The position numbers and the translations under genes were made by a program. Positions 25,210 to 64,000 of a DNA stretch of 64,000 nt are shown piece after piece; positions within the stretch are counted from its first letter, which is position 1; each line of letters opens with the position of its first letter. This DNA is from Acetobacter aceti NBRC 14818 (GTDB taxonomy: Bacteria; Pseudomonadota; Alphaproteobacteria; Acetobacterales; Acetobacteraceae), in the NCBI RefSeq assembly GCF_000193495.2, contig NZ_AP023410.1, forward strand, positions 3,309,501-3,373,500. Direction: 5' to 3'. Below the pieces are notes generated by a model, which saw nothing but the letters and a program-made list of their open reading frames with translations, ran no database searches and was not told the DNA's origin.

Positions 25210-25560
25210 ATGAGCAAGATTCTCCGCACAGAACCGAACAAGATTCTGTCCAAGGCCGTCGAATATCACGGCTTTATTTTCACACAGGGCATGGTCGCCC
25301 GCGACCTCACGAAGGATGCCAAGGGCCAGACGCAGGATATCCTTGAGCAGCTCGATACGCTTCTGGAAGAGCACGGCACGGACAAGACCCGTATCCTGCA
25401 GGCCCAGATCTGGCTGAAAAACATCAACGACCGCACCACGCTGAACGAAGTCTGGAGCGCATGGCTGCCGGAAAACGGTGCACCGGCCCGCGCCTGCGTG
25501 CAGGCTGTCATGGCTGACCCGAAGATGCTCGTTGAGATCATGCTCGTCACGACGAAATAA
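25210..25560 (+). CDS. ridA: RidA/YjgF-family enamine/imine deaminase
   Basis: A 116-residue Rid protein with the key arginine in GAPARACVQA and the G-Q-T-Q-D-I-L-E-Q-L helix. The N-terminus (KILSKAVEYHGFIFTQG) is of the Rid type often found near FAD-dependent amino-acid oxidases rather than classical RidA with its GPYSQA. Rid proteins hydrolyse reactive imines and 2-aminoacrylate. It sits just upstream of sarcosine oxidase and serine deaminase genes and has its own terminator, so it is a separate unit with a related job (inference). AGGAAAGAGAG lies upstream of the ATG. Confidence 0.88.
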   Translation: MSKILRTEPNKILSKAVEYHGFIFTQGMVARDLTKDAKGQTQDILEQLDTLLEEHGTDKTRILQAQIWLKNINDRTTLNEVWSAWLPENGAPARACVQAVMADPKMLVEIMLVTTK

Positions 25561-25568
25561 GGCGTCTC

Positions 25569-25598
25569 TCCCGCCTGCCGGATTTTGTGCAGGCGGGA
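25569..25598 (+). terminator. Terminator of ridA
   Basis: TCCCGCCTGC and GCAGGCGGGA form a perfect 10-bp GC-rich stem around CGGATTTTGT, nine bases past the ridA stop, followed by TATTTCTCT. Confidence 0.85.
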
Positions 25599-25790
25599 TA
25601 TTTCTCTGCCGTATTTTGGATAATGTCGCTTATCCCTGCAGAGTGACCGGGTGGCACCGCCGCCTGTTTCGGGATCTGAGGTTTTTTCCAGTCCCGCTGC
25701 GTGTTCCTGCAAACAGGATCATCATTTTATCCGTTTGATCACTCTCCACGGCCCTTGAAATGAAGGGTCTGTTGGCATTGTTCATTTCGA

Positions 25791-25819
25791 ATGCGATAAA
25801 AATTTTCACAGTGTCGCAT
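25791..25819 (+). promoter_or_regulatory. Candidate regulator site upstream of soxB
   Basis: ATGCGATA (25791-25798) and TGTCGCAT (25812-25819) are inverted copies matching at seven of eight positions, with 21 bp between half-site centres. The gap upstream of soxB (25599-25909) otherwise holds no gene. A further isolated TGTCGC lies at 25624. The same GTCG core appears upstream of gbcA and the second GlxA-type regulator. Binding is inferred only. Confidence 0.4.
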
Positions 25820-25909: not shown

Positions 25910-27166
25910 ATGGAACGATTTTCTGCTCTTTCCCTGGCCAGAAAGGCTCTCGGTGGCCATCTGGGCTGGAAGCCGCAATGGCGCTCCGTCGAGCAGCCAA
26001 AGAAGGCTTATGATATTATCATTGTCGGTGGCGGCGGCCACGGCCTCGGTGCGGCGTATTACCTCGCCAAACAGCACGGGCTGCGCAACATCGCCGTGAT
26101 CGAGCGTGGCTGGCTGGCGGGTGGCAACACCGCCCGTAACACCACCATCATTCGCTCGAACTACCTGTTCGACGAAAGCTCCTCCTATTACGAGCATTCT
26201 CTGAAACTGTGGGAAAATCTCTCGCAGGAACTGAACTACAACGTCATGTTCAGTCAGCGCGGATGCCTGATGGTGGCGCACACCGTGCATGACGTGCAGG
26301 TGTTCAAACGTCACGTTCATGCCAATCGTCTGAACGGAATCGACAACGAGTGGCTGTCGGCGGAGGAGGCGAAGGAATTCTGTCCGCCGCTGAACATCTC
26401 GCCGAACATCCGTTATCCGGTTCTCGGCGCCTCGCTTCAGCGTCGCGCTGGCACGGCCCGCCACGACGCCGTGGCATGGGGTTTTGCCCGTGCCGCCAGC
26501 GACATGGGTGTGGACATCATCGAGAATTGCGAAGTGACCGGCATCAATCGTGGTCCGGATGGCGCTGTCACCGGCGTCGAGACCACGAAGGGCACGGTCA
26601 ACGCGAAAAAGGTCGCTGTTTCGGCAGCGGGTCACAGTTCGGTCGTTCTGGAAATGGCGGGCATCCGTCTGCCATTGCAGAGCAATCCGCTTCAGGCGCT
26701 TGTCTCCGAGCCGGTGAAGCCTGCTTTCCCGACCATCGTCATGTCCAACACCATTCACGCCTATATCAGCCAGTCTGACAAAGGCGAGATGGTGATCGGC
26801 GCGGGAACGGACTCCTATGTGTCCTATACCCAGCGCGGTGGACTGCATATTCCGGCCGAAACATTGGCGGCGATCTGCGAGCTGTTCCCGATGTTCCGCC
26901 GTTTGCGCATGATGCGTTCGTGGGGCGGTATCACGGACAACACGCCCGACCGTTCGCCGATCACGGCGAAGACCTCGGTGCCGGGGCTTTACGTCAACTG
27001 CGGCTGGGGAACGGGCGGCTTCAAGGCGACGCCGGGTGCGGCGAACCTGTTTGCCTGGACCATCGCGAAGAATGAGCCGCATCCGATCAATGCGCCCTTC
27101 ACCATCGAGCGCTTCCGTGACGGCGTGATGATTGACGAAGCGGCGGCAGCGGCGGTGGCGCACTGA
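25910..27166 (+). CDS. soxB: Sarcosine oxidase beta subunit
   Basis: A 418-residue FAD/FMN subunit of heterotetrameric sarcosine oxidase, which turns sarcosine into glycine with oxygen and gives 5,10-methylene-THF when folate is present. [19 protein letters not shown] (about 34-52) is the FAD Rossmann motif, and H185 in [10 protein letters not shown] corresponds to the histidine that carries covalent [16 protein letters not shown] near the end is the usual FAD-closing segment. It opens soxBDAG, about 350 bases after ridA, and carries the operon promoter upstream. Confidence 0.96.
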
Positions 27167-27253
27167 GATGGTGTGTCGCCTCATGCTTCAGAAATCATCG
27201 CCGATAACGGCACGAGTTTTCACATCCGGTCTGCTCCGAGGAGCGAGTGCATC

Positions 27254-27559
27254 ATGCTGCTGATCCGCTGCCCGTATTGCGGGGAACGAGCCGAAGTCGA
27301 ATTTTCCAACGGGGGCGAGGCTCATATCGACCGTCCTCGTGATCCCATGAGCCTGACTGATGAGGAATGGGCTCAGTATCTCTACATGCGCGACAACCCG
27401 AAGGGACTGATCGCCGAGCGGTGGCGTCATGCTCACGGCTGCAACCGCTTCTTCAACGCCATCCGCGATACGCGGACGGATCGTTTCGTTGTCACCTATG
27501 AAATCGGACAGCCGCGTCCGGAAGTCACTCCGGAACAGGCTGCGGAGGCTGCACGATGA
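27254..27559 (+). CDS. soxD: Sarcosine oxidase delta subunit
   Basis: 101 residues from the ATG at 27254, chosen because MLLIRCPYCGER is the normal family start and GAGGAG lies 12 bases upstream. C6, C9, H59 and C63 are all present at the exact positions of the structural zinc ligands known for this subunit. It stabilises the complex and overlaps soxA by four bases. A longer frame from 27173 adds 27 unlike residues. Confidence 0.95.
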   Translation: MLLIRCPYCGERAEVEFSNGGEAHIDRPRDPMSLTDEEWAQYLYMRDNPKGLIAERWRHAHGCNRFFNAIRDTRTDRFVVTYEIGQPRPEVTPEQAAEAAR

Positions 27560-30500
27560 GTAGCTTGTCCCGAGCTTCTGCCCGCGTTCCCGGTCGCGGT
27601 CGCGTCAACACGCGCCGCCCTGTGCGCTTCACATTTGACGGCCGCAGCTTTGAAGGCTTCGAGGGTGATACGCTCGCCTCGGCCCTGCTGGCGAACGGCG
27701 TTCACCTGATGGGGCGGTCCTTCAAATATCACCGTCCACGCGGCCCGATCTCCGCCGGTTCCGACGAGCCGAACGCCGTCGTGGCTGTCGGTTCCGGTCC
27801 TGCACTGCAAACGCCGAACCTCGTCGCCACGCAGGTCGAGGTCTATGACGGTCTGACCGCGCAGAGCCAGAACCGCTTCCCCTGTCTTCAGTTCGACATG
27901 GGGGCGGTGAACAATCTGGCCTCACCACTGATTCCGTCAGGCTTCTACTACAAGACCTTTATGTGGCCGCGGAATTTCTGGACCAAGGTCTATGAGCCGA
28001 TCATCCGTCGTTCGGCTGGTCTGGGTGTGGCTCCAACCGAGCCTGATCCGGATCATTACGCTTTCCAGTACACGTTCTGCGACGTGCTGGTAGCCGGTGG
28101 TGGCCCCGCTGGTCTGGCGGCGGCTCTGACGGCCGCGAAGGCTGGCGCGGAAGTGATGCTCGCCGACGAGACGGCGGAGTTCGGTGGCAGCCTGCTCTTT
28201 GATCGCGCATCCCGTATCGACGGTCTGCCTGCTTCCGAGTGGGTCGAGCGCACGGTCGCCGAACTGAAGAAGCTGCCCAACGTGCGGATGTTCACCCGCA
28301 CCACGGTGTTCAATTATGGTCCGCACAACATGGTCGCGCTCAACGAACGCCTGACCGATCATCTGAGCACGCCAAACCCGGCCACGCCGCGCGAGCGTCT
28401 ATGGCAGGTGCGCGCGAAACAGGTGGTTATCGCGTCCGGTGCGATCGAACGTCCGCTGGTGTTCGAAGGTAATGACCGTCCGGGCGTCATGCTCGCCAGC
28501 GCGGCGCAGACTTACCTCAATCGGTATGGCGTGGCCTGTGGTCGTAAGGCTGTCATCGCCACGGCGGACGACAGTGCCTATCGCGTGGCGCTCGATCTGC
28601 TTGAAGCGGGTGTGAAAATCGCTGCCATCGTCGATATCCGTCCGAAGCCTGACTCTGAACTGTTTCGCAAGGTAAAAGCTGCGGGTATCAAGGTTCTGGT
28701 CAACAGCACGGTCCAGCGCGCTCACGGTTCGCAGCGTATTCACAGCGTCGAACTGGCTCCGGTTCTGCCGGGTGGCGATGTGGGTGAGGGCAAGAACTAC
28801 AGTTGCGACCTGCTGCTCATGGCGGGTGGCTGGACGCCGAGCCTGCACCTGTTCTCCCAGTCCAAGGGCAAGGTGGTCTACAACGCCGATCTCGATACCT
28901 ATCTACCGGGCGAGTCTGCTCAGGCAGAGCGTTCAACCGGTTCCTGTCGCGGGATCTACGACCTTGGAGAAGTGCTGGCCGATGGTCTGAAAGCTGGTGC
29001 CGGTGCTGCGAAAGACGCAGGTTTTGACGGTGAGGTCGATCTTCCTCTGTGGGAAGTGACCAGCGACGCCATCGGTCGCGGTGGCTTCACCGGTGCGCTG
29101 CCCCGTCGCGGCAAGGGCCTGACGGCCATGGCGTTCGTCGATTACCAGAACGACGTGACGGCCAAGGACGTGAAACTTGCTGTGCGCGAGGGCTTCCGTT
29201 CGATCGAGCACATCAAGCGCTACACGACCACCGGCATGGCCACCGATCAGGGCAAGACCTCGAACCTGAATGCGCTCGGCATTGCGTCCAGCGCGCTGGG
29301 TCGTCCGAAGCAGCAGATCGGTCTCACCACGTTCCGTGCGCCTTACACGCCGGTGACGTTCGGCGCGTTCAGCGGTCATGAGCGGGGTAACCTGTTCGAT
29401 CCGGATCGCCGCACACCGATCGACCCCTGGGCGCGCAGCAAGGGCGCGGTCTTCGAAGATGTCAGCCTGTGGCGTCGCGCCCGCTACTTCCCGCAGCCGG
29501 GTGAAGACATGGACGCCGCCGTGGCCCGTGAGTGCCTCGCTGTCCGCAAGAGCGTTGGCATCTTCGACGCCACCACGCTGGGCAAGATCGAGGTCGTCGG
29601 ACCTGACGCCGCCGAGTTCATGAACCGGATGTATGTCAACGGCTGGACCAAGCTGGGTGTCGGCAAATGCCGTTACGGCCTGATGTGTCGCGAAAACGGC
29701 TTCGTTTATGATGACGGTGTTGTCGGTCGCATCGCGAAAGATCGTTTCCACGTCACCACCACGACAGGTGGCGCGGCAGGCGTTCTGACCATGATGGAGG
29801 ACTACCTCCAGACCGAATGGCAGGATCTCGATGTCTGGCTGACTTCCACCTCGGAAGAGTGGGCGGTCATCGCGGTGCAGGGTCCGAAGGCACGCGAGGT
29901 TCTGGCGCCTTTGGTGGACGGGCTGGACATTTCGCACGCCACCATGCCGCATATGAGCGTCGTGGAAGGCACTATCGGTGGAATCCCGATGCGCCTGTTC
30001 CGGGTCAGCTTCTCCGGCGAGCTTGGCTTCGAAGTGAACGTGCCGCCGAGCCGTGCACTCGAAGTGTGGGAGCGTATCTGGGAGGCGGGCAAGCCTTACG
30101 ACATGACGCCTTATGGCACGGAGACGATGCACGTCCTGCGTGCCGAGAAAGGCTACATCATCGTCGGGCAGGAAACCGATGGCACGGCGACGCCGGATGA
30201 TGCGGGCTGTGGCTGGGCGGTCAGCAAGTTGAAGAAGGACTTCGTGGGTAAACGCTCACTGGCTCTCCCAGCGATGCAGGACCCGGACCGCTACCAACTT
30301 GTCGGCCTCTACACGCAAGCGCCGCAGGAAGTGCTGGAAGAAGGGGCGCAGCTTGTCGCCAGCCCGAACGAGGTCATTCCGATGGACAAAATTGGCCATG
30401 TCACCTCGTCCTACCACAGTGCGACGCTGGGCCGGTCCATCGCTCTCGCCATGGTGTCCGGTGGGCGCGCCCGCATGGGACAGACCCTCTACGTGCCGAT

Positions 30501-30576
30501 GGAAGACAAGGTGATCCCGGTCACCGTCACCAGTCCGGTGTTCTATGACGCGGAAGGAGCCCGCCTCAATGTCTGA
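27556..30576 (+). CDS. soxA: Sarcosine oxidase alpha subunit
   Basis: A 1006-residue subunit. Residues about 20-110 form a ferredoxin-like domain; VLVAGGGPAGLAAALTAAKA (about 178-197) binds NAD; a disulfide-oxidoreductase-like region continues to about 560. The last 400 residues are a GcvT-like folate domain (about 600-1000) with LGKIEVVGPDAAEFMNRMY and F-S-G-E-L-G-F-E-V-N. It provides the folate site where the sarcosine methyl group is captured. Overlaps are four bases with soxD and eight with soxG. Length is typical. Confidence 0.96.
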   Translation: MSSLSRASARVPGRGRVNTRRPVRFTFDGRSFEGFEGDTLASALLANGVHLMGRSFKYHRPRGPISAGSDEPNAVVAVGSGPALQTPNLVATQVEVYDGLTAQSQNRFPCLQFDMGAVNNLASPLIPSGFYYKTFMWPRNFWTKVYEPIIRRSAGLGVAPTEPDPDHYAFQYTFCDVLVAGGGPAGLAAALTAAKAGAEVMLADETAEFGGSLLFDRASRIDGLPASEWVERTVAELKKLPNVRMFTRTTVFNYGPHNMVALNERLTDHLSTPNPATPRERLWQVRAKQVVIASGAIERPLVFEGNDRPGVMLASAAQTYLNRYGVACGRKAVIATADDSAYRVALDLLEAGVKIAAIVDIRPKPDSELFRKVKAAGIKVLVNSTVQRAHGSQRIHSVELAPVLPGGDVGEGKNYSCDLLLMAGGWTPSLHLFSQSKGKVVYNADLDTYLPGESAQAERSTGSCRGIYDLGEVLADGLKAGAGAAKDAGFDGEVDLPLWEVTSDAIGRGGFTGALPRRGKGLTAMAFVDYQNDVTAKDVKLAVREGFRSIEHIKRYTTTGMATDQGKTSNLNALGIASSALGRPKQQIGLTTFRAPYTPVTFGAFSGHERGNLFDPDRRTPIDPWARSKGAVFEDVSLWRRARYFPQPGEDMDAAVARECLAVRKSVGIFDATTLGKIEVVGPDAAEFMNRMYVNGWTKLGVGKCRYGLMCRENGFVYDDGVVGRIAKDRFHVTTTTGGAAGVLTMMEDYLQTEWQDLDVWLTSTSEEWAVIAVQGPKAREVLAPLVDGLDISHATMPHMSVVEGTIGGIPMRLFRVSFSGELGFEVNVPPSRALEVWERIWEAGKPYDMTPYGTETMHVLRAEKGYIIVGQETDGTATPDDAGCGWAVSKLKKDFVGKRSLALPAMQDPDRYQLVGLYTQAPQEVLEEGAQLVASPNEVIPMDKIGHVTSSYHSATLGRSIALAMVSGGRARMGQTLYVPMEDKVIPVTVTSPVFYDAEGARLNV

Positions 30577-31108
30577 CGTCTCTGTTTCCAACTCACTGGC
30601 TATCTCCCGCGCCGGGTTCACGGCCACGCCTCTCAAGGGAGGGCGTCGCTTCGCCCTTCAGGGTCGCAAGGACACGCTGGAAGGTGTGGCATGGGCCTTC
30701 GGTCTGTCCTGGGCTCCGGCCATGCTGGAAAGTGTGATCGTTGGTGACTGCACGCTGCTGCGTCTCGCGCCGCAGGAACTGTTCATCATCACAGGTGAGG
30801 CAGGGCTGCCTGAAGCCGTCACCACCTATCTCGGCACTGTGCCGAACAGTCTGGTGGAAGTTTCGGAGCGCCAGATCGGCTGGACACTGGAAGGTGAAAA
30901 GCTGCGTGACACGCTGGCGGCATTGAGTCCGCTGGACATGCGGGAGCGGTCCTTTCCGGTCGGGATGGTCACACGCACGCTGTTCGGCAAGGCTGACGGC
31001 ATGGTCTGGCGCACGGGAGAAAACACGTTCCATCTGGAAGTGTGGCGTTCTTTTGGGCCCTATATGTCGTCCATGATGGATGCGGCGGCGCTCGACGCGG
31101 CCTGGTGA
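30569..31108 (+). CDS. soxG: Sarcosine oxidase gamma subunit
   Basis: 179 residues from the ATG at 30569, which overlaps the soxA stop by eight bases and has GGAAGGAG upstream (about 30551-30558). It has the small GcvT/YgfZ-like fold of the gamma subunit, with RFALQGRKDTLEGV and MWRTGENTFHLEVWRSFGPY-like landmarks near 30-40 and 145-170. It completes the four-subunit enzyme. A perfect terminator stem follows 11 bases after the stop. Confidence 0.92.
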   Translation: MSDVSVSNSLAISRAGFTATPLKGGRRFALQGRKDTLEGVAWAFGLSWAPAMLESVIVGDCTLLRLAPQELFIITGEAGLPEAVTTYLGTVPNSLVEVSERQIGWTLEGEKLRDTLAALSPLDMRERSFPVGMVTRTLFGKADGMVWRTGENTFHLEVWRSFGPYMSSMMDAAALDAAW

Positions 31109-31324: not shown

Positions 31325-32695
31325 ATGATCAGTGTTTTTGAAATCTTCAAGATCGGCATTGGTCCTTCTTCCTCCCATACGGTCGGTCCGATGAAAGCCG
31401 CCGCGGAGTTTGTCACCGAACTGGCGGCGCTTGCGGATGACGCGGTCCATCCCCTGCATGTCCGGGTCACGCTCTATGGTTCGCTGGCATGGACGGGAGT
31501 GGGCCACGCCACGGATCGCGCCGTCATTCTCGGCCTGGGTGGACTGCATCCTGATAGGGTTGACCCGGATGAGGCCGAGGCCGTTCTTGCACGTGTGCGT
31601 GAGACGCATGAGCTAGGTCCGCGTGGCTGCATTTTCACGTTCGATGCCGACAAGGACATCATCTTTGATAAGGAGACGATTCCGCCCGTCCATCCGAACA
31701 CGCTTCAGTTTCTCGCCACGGATGGAAATGGAAAAGCTGTTCTGATCCGTCGTTACTGCTCGATCGGTGGCGGCTTTGTCGTGCCAGAAGACAGGAACGC
31801 GGAGGCCGTGCCGCAGAACGTCAATGTGCCATTCGATTTTCGCAGCGGCGCACAGCTTCTTGCCTGTGCGCGGCGTAGTGGCCTCAGTATTCCCGAGATC
31901 GTGCTGGCCAATGAGAGCGCCCTGCGTCCGGTGGAAGAGGTGCTGGCCTATGTGGATCGCATCATCGACGTGATGATGGCGTGCGTTGATCGGGGGATGA
32001 GAACGGAAGGCGTGTTGCCCGGTCGCCTCGGCGTGAAGCGGCGTGCACCCGCCATCCGCGACCGGCTGGAGGCGGATCGGTTTCGCAACGTCCGCACGGC
32101 TCACGAGATCATGGACTGGGTCAGTCTGTTCGCGATTGCTGTGAACGAGGAGAATGCAGCGGGGGGGCGCATCGTCACCGCGCCGACCAATGGCGCTGCG
32201 GGCGTTGTTCCTGCCGTGCTCCGGTATTATCGTGATTACAGCGCAGGCGCATCCCGCGCCGGTGAACGTGATTTTCTGCTGACAGCCGTTGCCATCGGTG
32301 GGCTGTTCAAGCGCAATGCGTCCATTTCTGGTGCGGAAGTAGGGTGTCAGGGAGAGGTCGGCGTCGCCTGTTCCATGGCGGCGGCTGGTCTGTCCGCGGC
32401 CTTGGGGGCAGGGGCAGCGCAGGTCGAGAACGCGGCGGAAATCGGGATGGAGCATCATCTCGGCATGACATGCGATCCGGTGGGTGGTCTGGTGCAGATC
32501 CCCTGCATCGAACGCAACGCGTTTGGGGCAATCAAGGCGATCAACGCGGCCTCTCTGGCCATGCGGGGCGATGGCTCCCATCACGTCTCTCTCGATGACG
32601 TGATCAAGACAATGTACGAGACCGGCAAGGATATGAGCAGTCGCTACAAGGAGACTTCTCTGGGTGGGCTGGCTGTCCGTTTCCCTGAGTGCTGA
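31325..32695 (+). CDS. sdaA: L-serine ammonia-lyase (iron-sulfur type)
   Basis: A 456-residue single-chain serine deaminase making pyruvate and ammonia. The N-terminal beta domain begins [19 protein letters not shown]; the catalytic alpha domain has [15 protein letters not shown]. Cluster cysteines are C341 (VGCQGEVG), C383 (MTCDPVGG) and C394 (QIPCIERN). The final residue is C456; in related crystal structures the C-terminal Cys reaches into the active site, and this feature is kept. It lies between soxBDAG and gbcA and ends the choline-to-pyruvate route. About 170 bases after the sox terminator hold its own promoter. Confidence 0.95.
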
Positions 32696-32898: not shown

Positions 32899-34155
32899 AT
32901 GTCCGGTCAAACAGAAGAAATGCTCAAAACGCTCCTTGCCCGCCGCAAGCCGGGTTTCGCCCTTGAGGCACCGTTCTACACGGATGAGGGCATCTTCGAT
33001 GAGGACATGAAGCACATCTTCGGTCAGCACTGGATTTATGTCGGTGTCGAACCGGATGTTGCCGAACCCGGCGATGCGATGGTCGTCAATATCGGGAAAT
33101 CTTCCGTCATCATCACCCGTGACGATGATGATGCGATCCGGGCGTTCCATAATGTCTGCCGTCACCGTGGCGCCCGGATGATTCCCGAAGGCAAGACGAT
33201 GATCGGCAACATCGTCTGTCCCTATCATTCATGGACCTATGGAATTGATGGCGCGCTGAAATTCGCCGAGCATATGGGGGAAGATTTTGACCCCAAATGT
33301 CGTGGTCTCAAGAAAGTGGCGGTGCGTTCGGTTGCGGGACTGATCTTTATCTGTCTGGCCGAAAATCCGCCGGAAGATATCGAGGACATGGCCCGTGTCA
33401 TGGAACCGTATCTTGCGCCGCATGATCTGAAAAATACACGGGTGGCCTTTGAGTCCGATCTCATCGAGAAGGGAAACTGGAAGCTCACGCTGGAAAATAA
33501 CCGCGAGTGCTATCACTGCGGCCCGAACCATCCTGAGCTGACCATTCCGCTTTTTGCCTATGGCTTCGGCTATGCGCCCGGAACGCTGGATGAGGAAAGC
33601 CAGCGTGACGCGCAGCGTTATGCGGAACTGGCCACCACATGCCATGCGCGCTGGGAAGAAGAGGGGCTTCCCTCCCGTGAGGTTGAGCATCTTGATGACA
33701 GAATCACGGGTTTCCGGACCGAACGGCTGCCGATCGACCGCTCTGGTGAAAGCCAGACGATGGACACCAAAGCTGCCTGCCGCGTTCCGTTGGGAGATCT
33801 GAAAGACAAGGCGATTGGTGGTTTGTCCTTCTGGACACAGCCCAACTCATGGCATCATTTTATGGGCGATCACATTGTCACCTTCGCCGTGTTCCCACTG
33901 GATGCTGGCACGACGTTGGTCCGCACAAAGTGGCTCGTGCACAAGGATGCGGTCGAGGGTGTCGATTATGATCTGCAACGTCTGACAGAAGTCTGGCGGG
34001 CCACGAACCAGCAGGATGCGGATCTGGTCGAGATTTCCCAACAGGGCGCGACCGATCCCGCATTTGAGGCCGGACCATACTCTCCTTACACGGAAGGTCT
34101 GGTTGAGAAATTCGCTGCCTGGTACATCGGTCGCATGAAGGCGGCTCTGGCATGA
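32899..34155 (+). CDS. gbcA: Glycine betaine monooxygenase, Rieske oxygenase subunit
   Basis: A 418-residue Rieske-type oxygenase that removes one methyl group from glycine betaine as formaldehyde, giving dimethylglycine. The [2Fe-2S] ligands are C87/H89 (CRHRGARM) and C107/H110 (CPYHSWTYG). The mononuclear iron ligands include H206 and H211 in the ECYHCGPNHPEL stretch, with E203 as the likely electron bridge. The reductase partner gbcB overlaps by four bases. It opens a nine-gene run; AAGGAA lies upstream of the ATG (about 32885-32890). Identity with GbcA rather than stachydrine or carnitine oxygenase is supported by the dgc neighbours. Confidence 0.92.
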   Translation: MSGQTEEMLKTLLARRKPGFALEAPFYTDEGIFDEDMKHIFGQHWIYVGVEPDVAEPGDAMVVNIGKSSVIITRDDDDAIRAFHNVCRHRGARMIPEGKTMIGNIVCPYHSWTYGIDGALKFAEHMGEDFDPKCRGLKKVAVRSVAGLIFICLAENPPEDIEDMARVMEPYLAPHDLKNTRVAFESDLIEKGNWKLTLENNRECYHCGPNHPELTIPLFAYGFGYAPGTLDEESQRDAQRYAELATTCHARWEEEGLPSREVEHLDDRITGFRTERLPIDRSGESQTMDTKAACRVPLGDLKDKAIGGLSFWTQPNSWHHFMGDHIVTFAVFPLDAGTTLVRTKWLVHKDAVEGVDYDLQRLTEVWRATNQQDADLVEISQQGATDPAFEAGPYSPYTEGLVEKFAAWYIGRMKAALA

Positions 34156-35258
34156 CGGTGAACGGCGTGCTTGCAGAACTGAACGATCTGGCTTCCGCTC
34201 CTCTGTGGGACGCTGAGCGGGATGAGGTGCTTGTCTGCCGTCAGGTCATCGACGAAACACACGATGTGAAGACATTCGTGTTTTCCGCTCCACAGGCGCG
34301 CCGTTTTTGCTATCGGCCTGGCCAGTTCATGACATTTTCCCTTCCATGTGGACCATCGGGAGAGGAGATCAACCGAAGCTATACGCTATCTTCCGCACCC
34401 ACCCGCCCGGATCGTGTGTCGATTACTGTGAAGCGGGTGGCGAAAGGGCCGGTTTCGAACTGGCTGCACGACACTCTGCAACCGGGGATGGAAGTAAAGG
34501 TTACGGGACCGGCTGGAGAGTTTACGTGCTCGGATAGTTCATCGAAAAAGTTTCTCTTTCTGTCAGGGGGAAGCGGCATCACACCGATGATGTCCATGTC
34601 CCGTACGCTGATGGATCTTGGGGGGGAGGCGGATGTGGTGTTTCTCCACAGCGCCCGTAGTCCTGACGATCTGATTTTTGCGCGAGAACTGGCGCTGATG
34701 GAGCAGCGCTGGCCCGATTTCCGTGCTTCCACGATCTGTGAGAGCGATACGCCCTCCGGTCGCTGGCAGGGATTGCGCGGACGGCTTGTCGCCTCAATGT
34801 TGCCTCTGGTCGCTCCTGATTTTCTGGAGCGCGAGGTCTATGTCTGTGGCCCGGAGCCTTATATGGCCGCAGTCCGCACGCTGCTTGCCGACAGTGGTTT
34901 CGACATGACCCGTCATCATGAGGAAAGTTTCGATTTCGCTACACTCATGCAAGGGGAACTTGAAGAAGCCTTCGCCGCACCGGAGCCGGGTGAGACGACT
35001 TACAAGGTCAACTTCACAAAAAGCCGTCGTGAGATCGAATGTGGCACGGACACCAACATTCTTTCCGCCGCCCGTGCCGAGGGAATGCGCGTTCCGGCAT
35101 CCTGCGGAAAGGGACTGTGTGGAACCTGCAAGTGCAAGCTCGTATCAGGGACTGTGGAAATGAAGCACGAAGGAGGTATCCGCCAGCGTGAAGTCGATAT
35201 GGGCATGATCCTGATCTGCTGTTCAAAGCCCACCAGCGACGTGGTGATCGAACGCTGA
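34152..35258 (+). CDS. gbcB: Glycine betaine monooxygenase reductase subunit
   Basis: A 368-residue flavodoxin/ferredoxin reductase-type protein. An FAD domain (R-S-Y-T-L-S-S-A-P at about 74-82) and an NAD(P)H domain (FLSGGSGITPMMS near 135-147) are followed by a C-terminal plant-type [2Fe-2S] ferredoxin with SCGKGLCGTCKCKL and a last Cys near the end (LICCSKP). It passes electrons from NAD(P)H to GbcA. It is translationally coupled to gbcA (ATGA), and the next gene starts two bases after its stop. Confidence 0.93.
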   Translation: MTVNGVLAELNDLASAPLWDAERDEVLVCRQVIDETHDVKTFVFSAPQARRFCYRPGQFMTFSLPCGPSGEEINRSYTLSSAPTRPDRVSITVKRVAKGPVSNWLHDTLQPGMEVKVTGPAGEFTCSDSSSKKFLFLSGGSGITPMMSMSRTLMDLGGEADVVFLHSARSPDDLIFARELALMEQRWPDFRASTICESDTPSGRWQGLRGRLVASMLPLVAPDFLEREVYVCGPEPYMAAVRTLLADSGFDMTRHHEESFDFATLMQGELEEAFAAPEPGETTYKVNFTKSRREIECGTDTNILSAARAEGMRVPASCGKGLCGTCKCKLVSGTVEMKHEGGIRQREVDMGMILICCSKPTSDVVIER

Positions 35259-43332: not shown

Positions 43333-43342
43333 GGAGCAGGAC

Positions 43343-53102: not shown

Positions 53103-53208
53103 ATTTGCGCGCTCCGTTCCCTGTCGGAGAACGGAGCATTTTTCAGAAGAAACCCCATATTGTTGTCCGGAAATATATTGAACGGCAGACACGAAGGTTT
53201 TGTCGACT

Positions 53209-53355
53209 ATGAAAAATATTGAGGGTCTGAGGGGATTATCTCCTAGATGGGAGGTCGATGATCCTCTCAGACCATTCAGAGGAATTTTTTTCGCAATCAT
53301 TCTCAGCTCAATTCTATGGGGAGCATTGATGTTTCTCGTATTCAGGAGGACCTGA
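53209..53355 (+). CDS. Small membrane protein (48 residues)
   Basis: A short frame from the ATG at 53209 to TGA at 53353-53355. It has GAAGG about ten bases upstream. The protein begins MKNIEGLRGLSPRWEVDDPL, has a single hydrophobic helix at about 27-44 (GIFFAIILSSILWGALMFLV) and ends F-R-R-T. Its stop lies two bases before the start of the XRE regulator, and the regulator's AGGAGG lies inside its last codons. Layout resembles small membrane proteins of prophage-like regions. Function unknown. Confidence 0.65.
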   Translation: MKNIEGLRGLSPRWEVDDPLRPFRGIFFAIILSSILWGALMFLVFRRT

Positions 53356-53357
53356 CC

Positions 53358-53993: not shown

Positions 53994-54703
53994 ACAGCGA
54001 TTGTTCTTATGCGACAGCTTCGATTGTAGCTGAATTATTTGTTGGTCCGGAATGTCTTGCTCCTTGATGTTGGCAGGAGTCTTTTAGTAAGACGTCTGCT
54101 GGGACTTGTAGATAGCTAAATGTTATTCACGGCTTACATGGTATTTTATGATGGAACGACGTATCCAGTGTTTGCTCTTGGGAAAAGTGAGGATATACGA
54201 AGGCACAGCTAGCGCCTGTGTTATGGATTTTTGATTGAGGCGTCTTATACTTTCGTGTCGGATGAGGGGCAGCGCCACCGCTGTTAAGCCAAGAAGTGTG
54301 TGAGGCGATGCAGCGAATCAGACGGGAAAGCACGGATAAAACATTCAAAAGTTCGACGTCATTTGAGTAGGCGGTAGATCAAGTAAAAGATCAACTGTCA
54401 GCCTTTATTGCTCTGTCAGTCGTTGAAGGTAGATTGGAACTTAAGGCTGCAAAAGAAGCCGCAGTCTAGGCGCTTCTCGCAGCCGTGCAAAAACTTGTAA
54501 GCCAAACAAACCTTGATCACTAGAATATCATCCATTGAATGAGAGTTAGTTATATCGCAATGCAAGTTAGAGACTTGTCACAAGCCTTGAGGCTTGCCTA
54601 TTGGTGAGCAAAAGCGGTCAGTAACATCTGTTGGCTTACAAAGCGGAACCCTTCATGCGGCTATGCGTCATGATTGCAGATGGAAACAGGCGGGCAAGAG
54701 CGT
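53994..54703. other. 710-base gap with degenerate, non-coding DNA
   Basis: No intact gene is convincing. One frame (54272-54523) reads like helical protein (DQLSAFIALSVVEGRLELKA, then ALLAAVQKLVSQ) but has in-frame TAG at 54368-54370 and 54467-54469, and a last TAG at 54521. It looks like decayed coding sequence. A short stem CAAGCC-TTGA-GGCTTG occurs near 54583-54598. The last bases before 54704 should hold the sthA promoter. No terminal repeats, tRNA or transposase were seen. Confidence 0.5.
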
Positions 54704-56188
54704 ATGGCTGAATCGTTTGATTATGACCTGATTGTCATCGGGAGTGGACCTTCAGGTCGGCGGGCAGCCGTTCAGGCTTCCAAATTCGGACGCTCCGTGC
54801 TGATCATCGACAGACGCGGACAACTGGGCGGCGTTTCCGTCCACACCGGAACCATTCCGTCGAAAACCCTGCGGGAAACGGTGCTCAACCTGACCGGTTG
54901 GCGTGAGCGCGGAATTTACGGGATCAACTATCGGGTCAAGCAGGATATCGGGGCGCAGGATCTCGACATGCGTCTTGGTAAAACCCTGCAGGACGAGGTT
55001 GATATTCTGGAACACCAGTTCCTCCGCAACGGCATTACCGTGGAATATGGCAGCGCCAGATTCATGGGGCCGCATACGGTCGAAATCGAGGATGACGAAA
55101 AAAACCGTCGTATCGTCAGCGGCAAGGCGATTGTCGTGGCGGTGGGGTCCGTACCGCATCGACCAAGAAATATTCCGTTTGACGGAAAACGCGTCATCGA
55201 CAGTGACGGTATGGTCAGTCTGGAACGTATTCCCCGCTCACTGACCGTTGTTGGCGCGGGTGTGATCGGCATCGAATATGCGACCATCTTCAGTGCGCTG
55301 GATGTGCGTGTCACCATCATTGATCAGCGTGACCATATTCTCGATTTCATCGATCGTGAGGTGGTGGATGAGTTCGTTCACCAGCTGCGTGACCAGAGCG
55401 TCAATTTCCGCCTCGGCAGCGCCTTGGAATCCATTGTGATCGAGGCCGAACAGCCCGTCGCTATTTTGGAAGGTGGACGACGGGTTCGTGCTGACGTCCT
55501 GCTTTATACAGGCGGCAGACAGGGGGCGACGGCGGGCCTCAATCTGGCTGCTGCGGGGCTGGAAGCGGATAATCGCGGACGTCTCACAGTTGATCCGGTG
55601 ACGTTCCAGACCAGCGTGCCCAGCATCTACGCGACGGGCGATGTGATCGGTTTTCCGGCTCTGGCTTCCACATCCATGGAGCAGGGCCGCATTGCCGCCT
55701 GTCACGCCTGCGGCCAGCCTGTGCCCCCGGCTCCGAAATTTTTCCCTTATGGAATCTACTCGGTTCCCGAAATCTCCATGGTCGGGATGACAGAGGAGGA
55801 AGTCCGGAAAAAGAAAATCCCTTACGAAACAGGGATTGCCCGTTTTCGCGAAACCTCCCGTGGTCAGATCATGGGCGAGCGCGGTGGTTTTCTGAAGATC
55901 ATCGTTTGTCTGGAGACGCACAGACTTCTCGGTGTGCATATTGTCGGAGAAGCGGCGACCGAACTGATCCACATCGGTCAGGCTGTTCTGAACTTTGATG
56001 GCAGCTTCGAGTATTTCATTGAAGCAACCTTCAATTATCCAACCTTTGCCGAAGCCTACAAAAGTGCGGCTCTGGATGTATGGAACAGGATTACACCCCG
56101 TCATGAAGGAGAGGGGGAACCCCCGGCTGTTTCGCCTGAGGATTCAGCTCCCCGTCGAGCAAAGAAAGTTTCGGCAGAAAAAGGGTGA
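54704..56188 (+). CDS. sthA: Soluble pyridine nucleotide transhydrogenase SthA
   Basis: 494 residues from the ATG at 54704, chosen because MAESFDYDLIVIGSGPSGRR is the normal start; a longer frame begins at a TTG (54674). It is a flavoprotein disulfide reductase-like fold, but the redox pair is replaced: the segment reads GGVSVHTGTIPSKTLRE, as in SthA proteins that lack the disulfide. FAD (9-15), NAD (near 180: VVGAGVIGIEYATIFSAL) and FAD-closing (SIYATGDVIGFPALASTSME) motifs follow. It interconverts NADH and NADPH. Among choline genes it may balance the NADH from BetB and AdhC (inference). It ends with an E-K-rich tail. Confidence 0.92.
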   Translation: MAESFDYDLIVIGSGPSGRRAAVQASKFGRSVLIIDRRGQLGGVSVHTGTIPSKTLRETVLNLTGWRERGIYGINYRVKQDIGAQDLDMRLGKTLQDEVDILEHQFLRNGITVEYGSARFMGPHTVEIEDDEKNRRIVSGKAIVVAVGSVPHRPRNIPFDGKRVIDSDGMVSLERIPRSLTVVGAGVIGIEYATIFSALDVRVTIIDQRDHILDFIDREVVDEFVHQLRDQSVNFRLGSALESIVIEAEQPVAILEGGRRVRADVLLYTGGRQGATAGLNLAAAGLEADNRGRLTVDPVTFQTSVPSIYATGDVIGFPALASTSMEQGRIAACHACGQPVPPAPKFFPYGIYSVPEISMVGMTEEEVRKKKIPYETGIARFRETSRGQIMGERGGFLKIIVCLETHRLLGVHIVGEAATELIHIGQAVLNFDGSFEYFIEATFNYPTFAEAYKSAALDVWNRITPRHEGEGEPPAVSPEDSAPRRAKKVSAEKG

Positions 56189-56335: not shown

Positions 56336-57424
56336 TCAGGTAGATTCAAACAACCTAACGCCCGCTCGTTCCCGGGACTTCAGGCTGGCAAGAAGCGGGG
56401 AAAGGGAAAGTGGTGTCTGCTCACTCCGTCCTTTTACCGAGCTCGGCGAATGACCGAACATGGTCTTGAACTGGCGTGAAAAATGCGCGCAATCGGAAAA
56501 ACCGGTTTCGATCGCGACCTGAGTGATCGACATTTCTCCTTGAGAGAGAAGAGACCGGGCATAGCGCAGCCGGATCATCCGGTAGAACACCGCAGGACGG
56601 ATGCCCAGAACCGACTGAAACAGTCTTTCCAGCTGGCGCGAAGAAATACCGAGCCGTTTGGCAACGGAGCTGATCGGGAGCGGGTCGATCATGTTCTGCT
56701 CCATTTCCATCATTGCCCGCCTGACCCGCTGATCGACCACATGCTCAATATCTTCACTAATCGGCGGGTGAGGCTGAAGAGAGGGGGTATCCCCACGACG
56801 GGGGCGATCCAGAAGCAGAATATGACTGGCTTTGCGCGCCAGCGGACGGCTTAGATGCTTTTCGATGAGATGCAAGGCCAGTTCCGCCGTTCCGCCGCCA
56901 CCTGAACAGGTGATGCGGTCGCCATCAACCAGATACATCTGCTCGCTGGTGACCTGCTGATCCGGGAATTCTTCCAGAAAATCCTGACGATGATACCAAC
57001 TGACGCAGCAAGTGCGACCGCTCATCACACCAGCCCGCGCCAGCACGAAAGCGCCTGTGCAGATGCCGATCAGCGGTATGCCGAGACTGGCAGCCTTCTG
57101 AAGATAGCGTATGGCCGCTTCATCCACCTGCCTGCGCCCATGCAGCAGACCACCCACGACGGCGATATAGTCAAACTCGGCGGGATTGATCAGGTCAGAT
57201 GTCCGGCTGACGGAAATGCCGCAACTGGCGCGGATGGATTCCGGCCGACTGTTCATGATCTGCCAGCTGCACAGGATGGGGCGGCTCTTGTCCTCCTTGT
57301 CGGCGGCAAGGCGGAGATGGTCGATGAACAGGGAGAAGGCGGACAGAGTAAAATTCTCCGCCAGAATGATTCCGACACGCAGGCTCGGTGTCTCGGTGGG
57401 TAGCGACTGTTTCCGTTGCAACAT
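56336..57424 (-). CDS. Second GlxA-type regulator (DJ-1 domain plus AraC HTH)
   Basis: A 362-residue regulator. The DJ-1-like domain (about 14-200) has PLIGICTGAFVLARAGVMSG with the elbow Cys. The AraC domain (about 235-335) has SSVAKRLGISSRQLERLFQS, then FSDCAHFSRQFKTMFGHSPS. It is a paralogue of the regulator at 35261, with an unlike effector domain (L-A-E-N-F-T-L-S-A-F-S-L-F-I). Members include GbdR, CdhR, ArgR and SouR. Position next to the bet/gly block suggests choline- or carnitine-related control. A phased TGTCGC repeat lies 135-162 bases upstream. Confidence 0.88.
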   Translation of the reverse strand: MLQRKQSLPTETPSLRVGIILAENFTLSAFSLFIDHLRLAADKEDKSRPILCSWQIMNSRPESIRASCGISVSRTSDLINPAEFDYIAVVGGLLHGRRQVDEAAIRYLQKAASLGIPLIGICTGAFVLARAGVMSGRTCCVSWYHRQDFLEEFPDQQVTSEQMYLVDGDRITCSGGGGTAELALHLIEKHLSRPLARKASHILLLDRPRRGDTPSLQPHPPISEDIEHVVDQRVRRAMMEMEQNMIDPLPISSVAKRLGISSRQLERLFQSVLGIRPAVFYRMIRLRYARSLLSQGEMSITQVAIETGFSDCAHFSRQFKTMFGHSPSSVKGRSEQTPLSLSPLLASLKSRERAGVRLFEST

Positions 57425-58075: not shown

Positions 58076-59365
58076 TCAATGTTTATAGATCGGGAACTTT
58101 GCACACAGCGCCTTGACCCGCTCATGGACAGCGTTCTCGACGGCGGCATCACCCTCGCCACCAGCGGCGGCCAGCGCGGTCAGAACCTCGTCGATCATCT
58201 CGCCGACCTGACGGAACTCGGCCTCGCGGAAACCGCGCGCCGTCGCCGCCGGACTGCCCAGACGGATGCCGGATGTGATCGCAGGCTTTTCCGGATCAAA
58301 CGGCACGGCGTTCTTGTTCGCCGTGATGCCCGCACGCTCCAGAGCCTTTTCCGCGATCTTGCCCGTCACCTTCTTCGGACGCAGATCAACCAGCAGCAGA
58401 TGGCTGTCCGTGCCGCCGGTCACGAGGTCGAAACCACGCGCCACAAGTGTCTCGCCCAGAACCTTCGCGTTGGCGGCGACGGCTTTCTGATACTCCTTGA
58501 ACTCCGGCTTCAGCGCCTCGCCGAACGCGACAGCCTTGGCGGCGATCACATGCATCAGCGGGCCGCCTTGCAGGCCGGGGAAGACGGCGGAATTGATCTT
58601 CTTCGCCAGCGCCTCGTTGTTTGTCAGGATCAGGCCGCCGCGAGGACCGCGCAGCGTCTTGTGCGTCGTGGTCGTGACGATGTCGGCGTGCGGGATCGGG
58701 CTCGGATAGAGACCAGCCGCCACCAGACCGGCGAAGTGCGCCATGTCCACCATCAGGAAAGCGCCGACCTCGTCAGCGATCTTGCGGAAGCGGGCGAAGT
58801 CGATGATGCGCGGATAGGCGGAGCTGCCGGCGACGATCAGCTTCGGCTTGTGCTCACGGGCCAGTGATTCCATCTCTTCGTAGTCGAGATAGCCATCTTC
58901 CTTGCGCACGCCATACTGCACGGCGTTGAACCACTTGCCGGAATAGTTCGGGGCTGCACCGTGTGTAAGGTGACCACCGGCGGCGAGGCTCATGCCCAGC
59001 ACCGTATCGCCCGGCGCCACGACCGACATGAACGCCGCCTGGTTGGCGTTCGCGCCCGAATGCGGCTGCACGTTGGCGAAGCCCGCGCCGAACATCTGCT
59101 TGGCCCGCTCGATGGCGAGGACCTCGACCTTGTCGACCTCGGAGCAGCCGCCATAGTAGCGACGACCCGGATAGCCCTCGGCATATTTGTTGGTCAGAAC
59201 GCTGCCCTGAGCCTGCAGGACAGCCTCCGACACCATGTTCTCCGACGCAATCAGCTCGATCCCGTCGCGCTGACGCTCGAACTCGCTCGCAATCGCTGCC
59301 GCAACCTCAGCGTCAACCTCCGCTAACGAAGACTGGAAAAAACTCTTCAACGTGTCCGTGCTCAT
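58076..59365 (-). CDS. glyA: Serine hydroxymethyltransferase
   Basis: A 429-residue PLP enzyme converting glycine plus 5,10-methylene-THF to serine. The PLP lysine is K236 in [27 protein letters not shown] and [13 protein letters not shown] are further landmarks. In this locus it joins the glycine made by sarcosine oxidase with the C1 unit captured at the same step, feeding SdaA. It is 150 bases after the nitrilase gene, so it may have its own promoter. A GTCGCA core lies upstream on the minus strand (about 59483-59488). Confidence 0.97.
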
Positions 59366-61038: not shown

Positions 61039-61071
61039 GACATTGGATTTCCCGTTTTCGTGCCCGACAGG

Positions 61072-62730
61072 TCAGCGCTGCCGGGTCTCCCAGTGTGGTG
61101 CGACGTAATACGGCGCATGCGACGGCGGCAGCATAGGTCGGTTACGGATGTGATCGGCTGCCTTTTCCGCGATCATTGTCGTCGGCGCGTTGAGATTGCC
61201 ATTGGTGACACGCGGCATGATGGAAGAATCCACCACGCGCAGTCCTTCCACGCCAATCACACGTGTTTCCGGATCGACGACCGCCATCGGGTCGTCGAGT
61301 GCGCCCATCTTGCAGGTGCAGGAGGGATGGAGTGCGCTTTCAACTTTCTGACGGATGAACTCGTCAATCTGTTCGTCAGATGTGCAATCCTCACCGGGTT
61401 GCAGTTCATGACCGTGGAAGGGCTGGAACGCTTCCTGATTGAACAGTTCGCGGGTCAGGCGGACGCAGGCGCGCATCTCTTCCCAGTCATCCAGATGGCT
61501 CAGGTAGTTGAAGAGTATCTTAGGCTTGTCCTCAGGATTTGCCGATTTCAGGCGCACATGACCCCGGCTTTTCGAACGCATCGGGCCGACATGAGCCTGA
61601 TAGCCGTGACCGGAGGCCAGCCCCTTGCCGTCATAGGTGACAGCCAGCGGCAGGAAATGGAACTGGATGTCCGGATAGGAAATGCCAGCCTTACTGCGGA
61701 TAAAACCACAGCTTTCGAAATGGTTCGTAGCGCCAAGGCCATCTTTCCGAAGAATCCAGCGCAGGCCGATCTTCAGTTTCGCCAGCGGGCTCATGGCGGA
61801 ATAGAGAGTGATCGGTTTCTTGCAGGCGATCTGGAAATAGAACTCCAGATGATCCTGCAAATTCTCGCCCACACCCGGACGATCCGCGATCACTGGAATC
61901 CCGAGAGCTTTCAGTTGTTCAGCTGGTCCGATTCCGGAAAGAAGTAGAAGCTGTGGCGAATTGATTGAACCGCCGGAGAGAATCACTTCCTTTCGAGCCC
62001 GTGCGATACATTCCTTACCTGCGCGGGTATAGGCAATGCCGACAGCGCGTTTGCCTTCAAACAGGATCTTCGTCGCGCGGGCCTGCTGGTGCACCTCAAG
62101 ATTTTTTCGATGCATGACTGGACGCAGATAGGCATTCGCCGTGTTCCAGCGCCGACCGTCCTTGACGGTCATGCTCATCTTGTCGAAGCCTTCCTGCTGG
62201 TAACCGTTATAATCATGCGTGACCGGATATCCGGCCTGATAACCAGCTTTCAGCCATGCTGAATGGAGTGGATTATCCACCGTGCCATACTGGGTGTGCA
62301 ACGGACCTGTCCGACCACGATAGGTGTCATCACCTTCCGTGCAGGACTCGGCTTTTTTGAAATAGGGCAGAACATCGGCATACGACCAGCCGGTTGCGCC
62401 TTCCTTCACCCAGTCTTCGAAATCGAACGCATTGCCGCGCACATACACCATGCCGTTGATGGAGGATGAGCCACCAAGCCCCTTGCCGCGCGGCGTGAAC
62501 ATGCGCCTGCCACCAAGATAAGGTTCCGGCTCGCTTTCGTAAAACCAGTTGAAGCGCTTGGAGTGCATCGGCATCGCCAGTGCGGTGGGCATCTGCACGA
62601 TGATCGACTTGTCGCTGCCGCCGAATTCCAGCAGCAGCACAGTGTCCTTGCCGTCTTCCGTCAGGCGATTGGCCAGCACGCATCCGGCAGACCCGGCCCC
62701 GACGACGATATAATCAAATTCCTGTTTCAT
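61072..62730 (-). CDS. betA: Choline dehydrogenase
   Basis: A 552-residue GMC oxidoreductase. The FAD motif is YIVVGAGSAGCVLANRL (5-21), RGKGLGGSSSINGMVYVRGN is the first GMC signature, and SGGSINSPQLLLLSGIGP the second. The active-site histidine is H468 in ALHPSCTCKMG, followed by the C-terminal N-G-N-L-N-A-P-T. It oxidises choline to betaine aldehyde with electrons going to the respiratory chain. It is 11 bases after betB, in the usual betBA order. Confidence 0.94.
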   Translation of the reverse strand: MKQEFDYIVVGAGSAGCVLANRLTEDGKDTVLLLEFGGSDKSIIVQMPTALAMPMHSKRFNWFYESEPEPYLGGRRMFTPRGKGLGGSSSINGMVYVRGNAFDFEDWVKEGATGWSYADVLPYFKKAESCTEGDDTYRGRTGPLHTQYGTVDNPLHSAWLKAGYQAGYPVTHDYNGYQQEGFDKMSMTVKDGRRWNTANAYLRPVMHRKNLEVHQQARATKILFEGKRAVGIAYTRAGKECIARARKEVILSGGSINSPQLLLLSGIGPAEQLKALGIPVIADRPGVGENLQDHLEFYFQIACKKPITLYSAMSPLAKLKIGLRWILRKDGLGATNHFESCGFIRSKAGISYPDIQFHFLPLAVTYDGKGLASGHGYQAHVGPMRSKSRGHVRLKSANPEDKPKILFNYLSHLDDWEEMRACVRLTRELFNQEAFQPFHGHELQPGEDCTSDEQIDEFIRQKVESALHPSCTCKMGALDDPMAVVDPETRVIGVEGLRVVDSSIMPRVTNGNLNAPTTMIAEKAADHIRNRPMLPPSHAPYYVAPHWETRQR

Positions 62731-62741
62731 GGCCTGTCTCC

Positions 62742-64000
62742 TCAGTAGGGGGATTCGACATTGCCGAGCGCCACATAGACGCTCTTGATCTGTGTGTAAT
62801 GGTCCAGTGCTGCCTGACTGTTTTCACGACCCAGCCCGGACTGCTTGTAGCCACCGAACGGCATTTCGATCGGTGTGATGTTGTACTGGTTGATCCAGCA
62901 GGTACCCGCTTCCAGCGCCGCGACGACGCGATGGCCACGTGCGAGATCGTTTGTGAACACGCCAGCCGCCAGGCCGAACTCTGTCGCATTGGCGCGGGTA
63001 ACGACTTCATCCTCGTCATGGAAATCGAGAACGGTCATGACTGGGCCGAAGATTTCCTCTCGGGCGATTTTCATGTCATCATTGCAGCCGGTAAAGATGG
63101 TCGGCTGCATAAACGCGCCCTTGCCGAATGCACCTTCTGTAAGGCGATGGCCGCCGGTTAGAAGTTGCGCGCCTTGTGCAATGCCGCTTTCCACGTAGGC
63201 CATGACCTTTTCCAGATGCGGCACGCTGATGAGCGCACCGACATCCGTATCTGCCGCCAGCGGGTCACCGATCTTCATCGCTTCGACGCGCCGCTTCAGT
63301 TCAGCAAGGAAGCGATCCCGGATTCCGGACTGCACGAAAACGCGTGTTCCATTCGAGCAGATTTCGCCACCCGAGTAGAAGTTGCCAAGCAGTGCGGCGG
63401 AGACGGCATTGTCCACGTCGGCATCGTCAAAGATGATGAGCGGAGATTTTCCACCCAGTTCCAGTGTAACATATTTCAGTGTGTTGGACGCCTCACGCAT
63501 CACAGCCTTGCCTGTGGGAACAGAACCCGTGAGGCTGACCTTGCGAATATCGGGATCGGCACACAGGCGTCGACCCACATCACCCGCGCCGTGCAGCACG
63601 TTGAAAACACCATCGGGCAAGCCGGCCTCACGGTAGATCTCGGCCAGGCGCACCGACGTCAGCGGCGTCATCTCGGAGCTTTTGAAGATCATCGCATTGC
63701 CGCAGGCCAGCGCTGGTGCGGATTTCCAGCAGGCGATCTGGATCGGGTAATTCCATGCGCCGATACCGGCTGTCACGCCAAGCGGTTCGCGGCGCGTATA
63801 AGCGAAGGCCTGCTCGCCAAGATCCATCGCCTCGCCATTGATCGCGCAGGCGACAGAGCCAAAATATTCGAGAGCGTCCGCGCCCGAGAGAATGTCCACT
63901 GCCGCCGTCTCAGCGATCGGCTTGCCCGTGTCGAGCGTTTCAATGCGGGCGAGCATGTCATTGTCGCGGCGGAGAAGATCAGCGGCCTTGCGCAGGACAC
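62742..64000 (-). CDS. betB: Betaine aldehyde dehydrogenase, N-terminus cut by window edge
   Basis: The frame runs off the right edge, giving about 418 residues of an aldehyde dehydrogenase. Landmarks are [20 protein letters not shown] (general-base Glu), [13 protein letters not shown] (catalytic Cys) and E-I-F-G-P-V-M, with [14 protein letters not shown] near the end. The [11 protein letters not shown] pattern is typical of BetB. It makes glycine betaine with NAD(P)+. Probably the first or second gene of the bet operon; a betI or betT gene may lie beyond the edge. Confidence 0.94.

Follow-up and report, generated by a model that had tools for sequence, protein, structure and literature searches.

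BetI-type TetR and betaine-aldehyde dehydrogenase halves in one reading frame at a choline catabolic locus of Acetobacter aceti NBRC 14818

Introduction

Does the betB gene at the edge of a choline catabolic locus of Acetobacter aceti NBRC 14818 encode a dehydrogenase only, or a dehydrogenase joined to the regulator of its own operon? The locus lies in a stretch of 64,000 nt (NZ_AP023410.1:3309501-3373500), called the window here, in a 3.69 Mb genome of 5 contigs; positions beyond the window are given on the contig (G000:C1). A preliminary description, made from the letters of the window, had placed a complete choline-to-pyruvate route in 25210..64000 and had taken its compactness to be unusual. 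Its betB, when begun at the first internal ATG, covers 62742-63956 but has no start of its own, and the gene is complete only beyond the window, the edge of which falls inside the gene of a BetI-BetB fusion. Here we show that the pathway cluster adds to the conserved examples of a kind already known, and that the fusion, apparently a variant of the betIBA system, is what would be new at this locus.

Results

The betIB gene is one uninterrupted frame of 698 residues starting at G000:C1:3374338, with a BetI-type TetR part at the N-terminus and BetB at the C-terminus. The missing betB start was not a mere effect of the window edge, since the frame continues into BetI. The BetI-type TetR part spans approximately residues 10-205; after it come a short linker, which varies, and the entire betaine-aldehyde dehydrogenase (approximately 226-698). 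Pfam analysis of the product revealed TetR_N (42.5 bits), TetR_C_6 ('BetI-type', 92 bits) and Aldedh, all above their cut-offs. The full BetB half passed both betaine-aldehyde dehydrogenase cut-offs (NF009725, 783.9 bits against 593; TIGR01804, 684.8 against 668.6), and its in-window part passed NF009725 (693/593) and missed TIGR01804 (611/669). The fusion is thus certain from the sequence, and its function is predicted. The gene precedes betA, and choWVX (permease, ATPase and binding protein) lies on the opposite strand; the permease and ATPase pass the choline ABC transporter cut-offs, the binding protein being just under (375.4/379.05).

Residues H55, Y56, F57 and K60, which we take to be the DNA-reading residues from the role known in TetR proteins, were invariant in 59 fused proteins. 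So were N363, K386 and E460 of the dehydrogenase half, and C494 was present in 58. E460 and C494 were taken, by motif and alignment, as the catalytic E252 and C286 of the Pseudomonas aeruginosa enzyme, residues that are named in PDB titles. In a structure model of a close relative (P0003) the N-terminal half was all-helical and confident, and the dehydrogenase half was of mixed confidence. Its nearest Foldseek match was the P. aeruginosa betaine aldehyde dehydrogenase 2wme, and the matches listed were dehydrogenases only.

An operator-like box, TTGAA-N6-TTCAA, is present between betIB and choWVX at G000:C1:3374354-3374369. We scanned the 500 bases before the BetI half, with one anchor for all 23 fused loci. 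Each of them carried such a palindromic site at its own operon, as expected of a BetI member, with at most one mismatch (8/8 Acetobacter loci, on which the pattern was defined, and 15/15 others), and 18 of the 23 carried a perfect box (6/8 and 12/15). From first-order random sequences of the same dinucleotide make-up, which are not exact dinucleotide shuffles, approximately 0.02 loci in all would be expected to carry a perfect site and 0.63 a site with one mismatch. The box was found in none of 23 in-gene control stretches and in none of the four Acetobacter loci with BetB but without BetI. No close BetI was found anywhere in these four genomes (the best E-values with the BetI model were 1.6e-10 to 3.4e-12, as compared to 9.9e-54 to 3.5e-56 in the fused Acetobacter genomes); their A. 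peroxydans-like loci (L096-L099) hold betB, betA and choX. The BetI1 protein of Ruegeria pomeroyi binds ATTGACG-CGTCAAT (PMC12442346), so that the TTGA...TCAA ends are common to both sites and the spacing is different.

Of 49 Acetobacter genomes, 8 have a frame that runs open through both halves, the other seven proteins being 97-78% identical to that of the window genome, and four further genomes have BetB alone (68-71% identity). Among 249 Acetobacteraceae genomes, 12 had a match across the junction inside a frame of at least 700 codons; the exceptions included one gene cut by a contig end (G057) and one pair of separate genes (G087). Among 398 genomes of the phylum, two besides that of the window (G437 and G381) were fused across the junction and two more (G573 and G590) on frame reading. 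G307, in which BetI lies within an open frame of 663 codons, was left out of the fused count because its BetB lies in a separate frame. A protein search with the BetI half was limited to proteins of 0.55-1.75 times 698 residues, and 1563 of 8000 scored candidates matched; among the matches listed, 120/120 covered both halves, and 111 were at least 640 residues long. When the BetB half was the query, 42 of the 120 matches listed covered both. The fusion extends to other Alphaproteobacteria and to Steroidobacteraceae; its named carriers include Acetobacter estunensis, Gluconacetobacter azotocaptans, G. tumulicola, G. sacchari, Nguyenibacter vanlangensis, Segnochrobactrum spirostomi, Bosea, Starkeya and Ancylobacter, and metagenome-assembled genomes of Caulobacteraceae, Geminicoccaceae, Xanthobacteraceae and Steroidobacteraceae; two Aureimonas loci (L027, L028) also have BetI and BetB in one frame. 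Unfused near relatives occur in A. peroxydans, A. papayae, A. suratthaniensis, Ameyamaea and Labrys. Those fused proteins that have a name are mostly called betaine-aldehyde dehydrogenase, some being labelled 'Multifunctional fusion protein' or 'HTH-type transcr...' in UniRef. No description of a BetI-BetB fusion was found in the literature searched, which lay largely outside subscription papers, so an earlier report is possible; the available parts of PMC12442346, PMC7824335 and PMC6207618 describe none.

In a tree of 71 BetI domains (44 fused and 27 free-standing), the 44 fused halves formed one side of a branch with support of 100/96, which was present in all 200 bootstrap trees and required one change. 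One locus (L130) had been left out, its contig ending 18 bases after the match, too early to show whether the gene is fused (510 bases matched; locus of 2028 bases against 1500 flanking elsewhere), and its inclusion gave two changes. For the BetB tree, P0122, P0153, P0160, P0178, P0223, P0224 and L132 were left out beforehand as partial or odd, and near copies at 84% or above were then removed, reducing 267 rows to 62. In this tree fused and unfused domains were mixed, with 7 changes as compared to 18 for shuffled labels. Frequencies of fused and unfused rows in these trees carry no meaning, the fused rows being drawn partly from the length-selecting search.

We determined dN/dS for 8 pairs among the 8 Acetobacter genes, of which one pair was saturated and several values are rough owing to dS above 1. 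The ratio was 0.02-0.11 for the BetI half (7/8 pairs), 0.03-0.09 for the BetB half (8/8) and 0.14-0.57 over the 35-residue junction stretch (7/8). Both halves are under purifying selection. The A. estunensis-like genes have three extra residues at the junction, and the frame is still kept.

Genes of the route are listed in Table 1. Family scans found all those named in the preliminary description within 25210..64000, and by gene content the route it had proposed, from choline through betaine aldehyde, betaine, dimethylglycine, sarcosine, glycine and serine to pyruvate, is complete. Disposal of formaldehyde, also claimed, is covered as far as formate by adhC and fghA; the genome matches to the formate dehydrogenase model were all below cut-off (best 541/666 bits). 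An origin from an acetic acid bacterium was likewise borne out, as the window GbcA shares 98% identity with its counterpart in Acetobacter sicerae LMG 1531 and 99% with the one in Acetobacter sp. UBA5411. The names of gbcA, gbcB, soxG, etfA, etfB, ridA, dgcA and the GbdR-like genes lean also on gene order, since their scores are below cut-off or, for dgcA, no model of that name matched in the scans of window proteins. The content of a GbdR-type betaine cluster, that is gbcAB, dgcAB, soxBDAG and a GbdR-type regulator together, is present, with gbcA, gbcB, soxG and both regulators below cut-off. DUF3483 is a domain reported for DgcB of Vibrio natriegens (PMC12093977). Two items absent from the preliminary list were the two GbdR-like AraC regulators and the choline ABC transporter directly outside the window.

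Table 1. Genes of the choline-to-pyruvate cluster, with scores given as bits/NCBIfam cut-off in family scans of window proteins.
Gene or product	Position	Strand	Family and score	Remark
ridA-like	25210..25560	+		Below cut-off of all three Rid models; beside soxB in L010, L020, L052
soxB, sarcosine oxidase beta	25910..27166	+	TIGR01373 672/529	
soxD	27173..27559	+	TIGR01374 122.5/116.5	
soxA	27556..30576	+	TIGR01372 1476/1164	
soxG	30545..31108	+	TIGR01375 76.5/144	Below cut-off; named by position
sdaA, L-serine ammonia-lyase	31325..32695	+	TIGR00720 629/345	
gbcA, betaine monooxygenase oxygenase	32899..34155	+	NF058607 430/670	Below cut-off
gbcB, reductase	34152..35258	+	NF058606 390/500	Below cut-off
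GbdR-like AraC regulator 1	35261..36259	+	NF052371 346/480	Below cut-off
dgcA, dimethylglycine demethylase (OYE-like)	36256..38307	+	Pfam Oxidored_FMN	Conserved order
dgcB	38310..40205	+	Pfam DUF3483 + 4Fe-4S	
etfA-like	40106..41422	+	NF051845 256.5/600	Below cut-off; longest frame, true start probably further in
etfB-like	41419..42183	+	NF051844 101/350	Below cut-off
adhC, glutathione-dependent formaldehyde dehydrogenase	42220..43332	+	TIGR02818 608/544	
fghA, S-formylglutathione hydrolase	43298..44194	+	TIGR02821 425/282	
sthA, transhydrogenase	54674..56188	+	NF003585 632/465	
GbdR-like AraC regulator 2	56336..57424	-	NF052371 199/480	Below cut-off
glyA	58076..59365	-	NF000586 641/335	
betA, choline dehydrogenase	61072..62730	-	TIGR01810 821/732	
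betIB fusion gene, in-window part (BetB sequence only)	62742..64000	-		Frame runs on to G000:C1:3374338, 838 bases past window

The genes had been described as present in one copy each. This is true inside the window, and gbcA is single in the genome at E <= 1e-60, but glyA has a second copy at G000:C1:1701710-1702990 that is 99% identical to 58076-59365, which suggests a recent duplication or gene conversion. Between glyA and betA (59516-61038) lie genes for a carbon-nitrogen hydrolase and a GNAT acetyltransferase, conserved in three relatives. Embedded in the island, and retained in three relatives, are a pirin-like gene and the genes of an EmrAB/outer-membrane efflux set with its LysR regulator (44198-50260); the efflux set, lysR and sthA stand between both halves of the route in 3/3 relatives compared. 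A stretch of approximately 4.3 kb between lysR and sthA (50250-54620; 47% G+C) carries a serine recombinase, a Hint-domain protein and an XRE-like regulator. As this stretch is missing from the three relatives compared, it was probably inserted recently.

We compared 77 named loci found through GbcA, using tblastn of window genes with a reach of at most 10 kb on each side and some contigs ending earlier; absence of a gene from such a locus can mean that it was out of reach. The genes soxB-soxA-gbcA-gbcB-dgcA-dgcB occurred on one strand and in the window order in 34 of the 77, comprising 20/25 from Aurantimonadaceae, 14/18 from Acetobacteraceae and 0/34 others. In three Gluconacetobacter loci betB-betA stands directly before soxB, tighter than in the window. 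GbcA (at least 67% identity) and BetB of the window type (at least 68%) were found in the same 12 of 49 Acetobacter genomes and are thus kept together. One genome (G027) has GbcA in two open pieces (G027:C151:21876-23110), a decaying copy or an assembly error. A GbcA paralogue near 50% identity is the sole GbcA in G004 and an extra one in G005. In Komagataeibacter, Acidisoma and Gluconacetobacter (L070, L072, L075), more distant GbcA-like genes (51-53% identity) have other dgcA-like genes no further than 10 kb away, perhaps as part of another N-demethylation route.

The counterpart genes of P. aeruginosa presumably lie within about PA5372-PA5421. Betaine catabolic clusters have been published for Colwellia psychrerythraea 34H (a 37-kb island and adjoining genes) and for V. 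natriegens, the latter in comparison with P. aeruginosa (PMC3691474, PMC12093977). As in the window, gbc, dgc, sox and glyA stand together on a single stretch of chromosome, and Colwellia also has a GbdR homologue. The published descriptions include purU and BCCT transporters; the window cluster includes sdaA, adhC and fghA, with the genes of a choline ABC transporter next to it. Betaine, dimethylglycine and sarcosine supported growth of V. natriegens, but choline did not (PMC12093977), and gene content alone therefore does not prove use of choline as a carbon source. The cluster is of a known kind and had mainly been read correctly, with growth on these substrates as a prediction.

Discussion

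We consider it probable that the locus is an island for choline/betaine catabolism and that its regulator and second pathway enzyme, joined in one polypeptide, act as a PutA-like autorepressing enzyme. Without choline, the BetI half would bind the TTGAA-N6-TTCAA boxes and shut off its own operon and probably the transporter, and choline bound to this half would release the DNA. BetA and the BetB half would then oxidise choline to betaine, which, via the GbdR-like activators, would switch on the gbc-dgc-sox-sda part. The ratio of repressor to aldehyde-removing enzyme would be fixed at 1:1, so that induction would also accumulate repressor; shut-off should therefore be fast once choline is exhausted, and the reactive aldehyde should never arise without its remover. 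A bolder version, in which BetIB is a widespread, anciently fused two-sensor autorepressor with the TetR half reading choline and the dehydrogenase half reading betaine aldehyde or NAD, is possible but unlikely. If true, catalysis would directly retune repression of the choline operon and choline uptake, the enzyme half altering DNA binding as in PutA, and BetIB would be a TetR-based counterpart of PutA.

Several observations weigh against an autorepressing enzyme. The BetI half scores 185.7 bits against the NCBIfam betaine_BetI cut-off of 201.3, and for this reason we call it BetI-type and not the NCBIfam equivalog; the same cut-off was passed in 0/49 Acetobacter genomes and in 1/14 control genomes. 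The box is independent evidence only in the 15 fused loci outside Acetobacter, its position differs between groups, and 9 of the 10 perfect sites in the genome lie elsewhere than at betIB. BetI and BetB are adjacent with stops between them in 11 of 398 genomes of the phylum, and one of the 249 Acetobacteraceae genomes keeps in frame only the end of the BetI half (G139:C36:243291-243722), perhaps as a stage in BetI loss. The single-chain P0003 model has a mean pLDDT of 81.9 and a pTM of 0.67, with pLDDT below 50 at 336-349, at 490-496 around the catalytic Cys and at 645-689. A single clade of fused BetB halves was rejected (p-AU 1e-6), and this mixing means either that the BetI half was lost several times and is hence dispensable, or that the fusion recurred. 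Recurrent fusion is disfavoured by the BetI tree, and both trees taken together fit a single early fusion, after which the BetI half was lost in some lineages, for example the A. peroxydans-like group, better than repeated fusion. Transfer of the fusion between lineages is likely.

The strongest alternative to an autorepressing enzyme, to which we give somewhat less than an even chance, is that the fusion only co-produces both proteins and that each half works on its own, like the products of an ordinary betIB operon, the link having no regulatory effect. This would explain why each half keeps its own conserved residues while the junction evolves faster and linker lengths vary, and the conservation of BetB in the A. 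peroxydans-like group suggests that it works there in the absence of BetI. An origin in one event, followed by wide retention, speaks, weakly, for an advantage of the link.

It is improbable that cleavage or an internal restart yields separate BetI and BetB in the cell. We looked for start codons in the 45 codons before the NPAT landmark in the 23 fused loci. None was common to the 8 Acetobacter genes, and L093, L121 and L124 had no candidate start at all. In favour of a restart, and against a single autorepressing chain, free BetB may be made in 6/23 loci (L122, L123, L125-L128), where an in-frame ATG close to the former start of betB is accompanied by a Shine-Dalgarno-like stretch; the A. 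estunensis-like L094 and L095 have an ATG without such a stretch.

Still less probable is a BetI half that no longer represses and is kept for a structural or oligomerising role in the dehydrogenase. Its score under the family cut-off would agree with such a role, and BetI and dehydrogenase oligomers may be incompatible, but the DNA-reading residues are invariant in the 59 proteins, the box distinguishes all 23 fused loci from the four BetI-less Acetobacter loci, and the dN/dS of the BetI half is as low as that of the enzyme. That an unusually compact choline cluster is by itself the news is hardly credible: the genes are present and co-occur, but the conserved order in other loci and the published clusters refute it as a claim of novelty.

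An autorepressing BetIB can be compared with known systems. PutA is nearest to it in presumed mode of action and is not a relative. PutA has ribbon-helix-helix and proline dehydrogenase domains, whereas BetIB has a TetR-type DNA-binding half and another enzyme and substrate, Pfam finding TetR_N, TetR_C_6 and Aldedh only. In enteric bacteria PutA is a proline dehydrogenase that represses the put operon, so that a catabolic dehydrogenase and the repressor of its own operon would stand on one chain in both, given the activities predicted for BetIB (PMC6978683). The betIBA operons of Escherichia coli, P. aeruginosa, Sinorhizobium and Ruegeria have the same two families side by side, with a choline-responsive TetR repressor beside its structural genes (PMC12442346), but as separate proteins and not as the one polypeptide of the window genome. 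Ruegeria pomeroyi DSS-3 is likewise an alphaproteobacterium with choline control by BetI and palindromic boxes; it has two free-standing BetIs, and the available part of the article describes no fusion (PMC12442346).

Conclusions

BetIB appears to unite a transcription switch with the enzyme that it switches in a single molecule, and the pathway concerned produces a reactive aldehyde. The fusion looks old and widespread and was sometimes lost, the operator-like box being missing where BetI is missing. It makes the effect of covalent coupling on the on/off switching of a metabolic operon directly testable. If the fusion regulates, many proteins now named only 'betaine-aldehyde dehydrogenase' would be regulators too.

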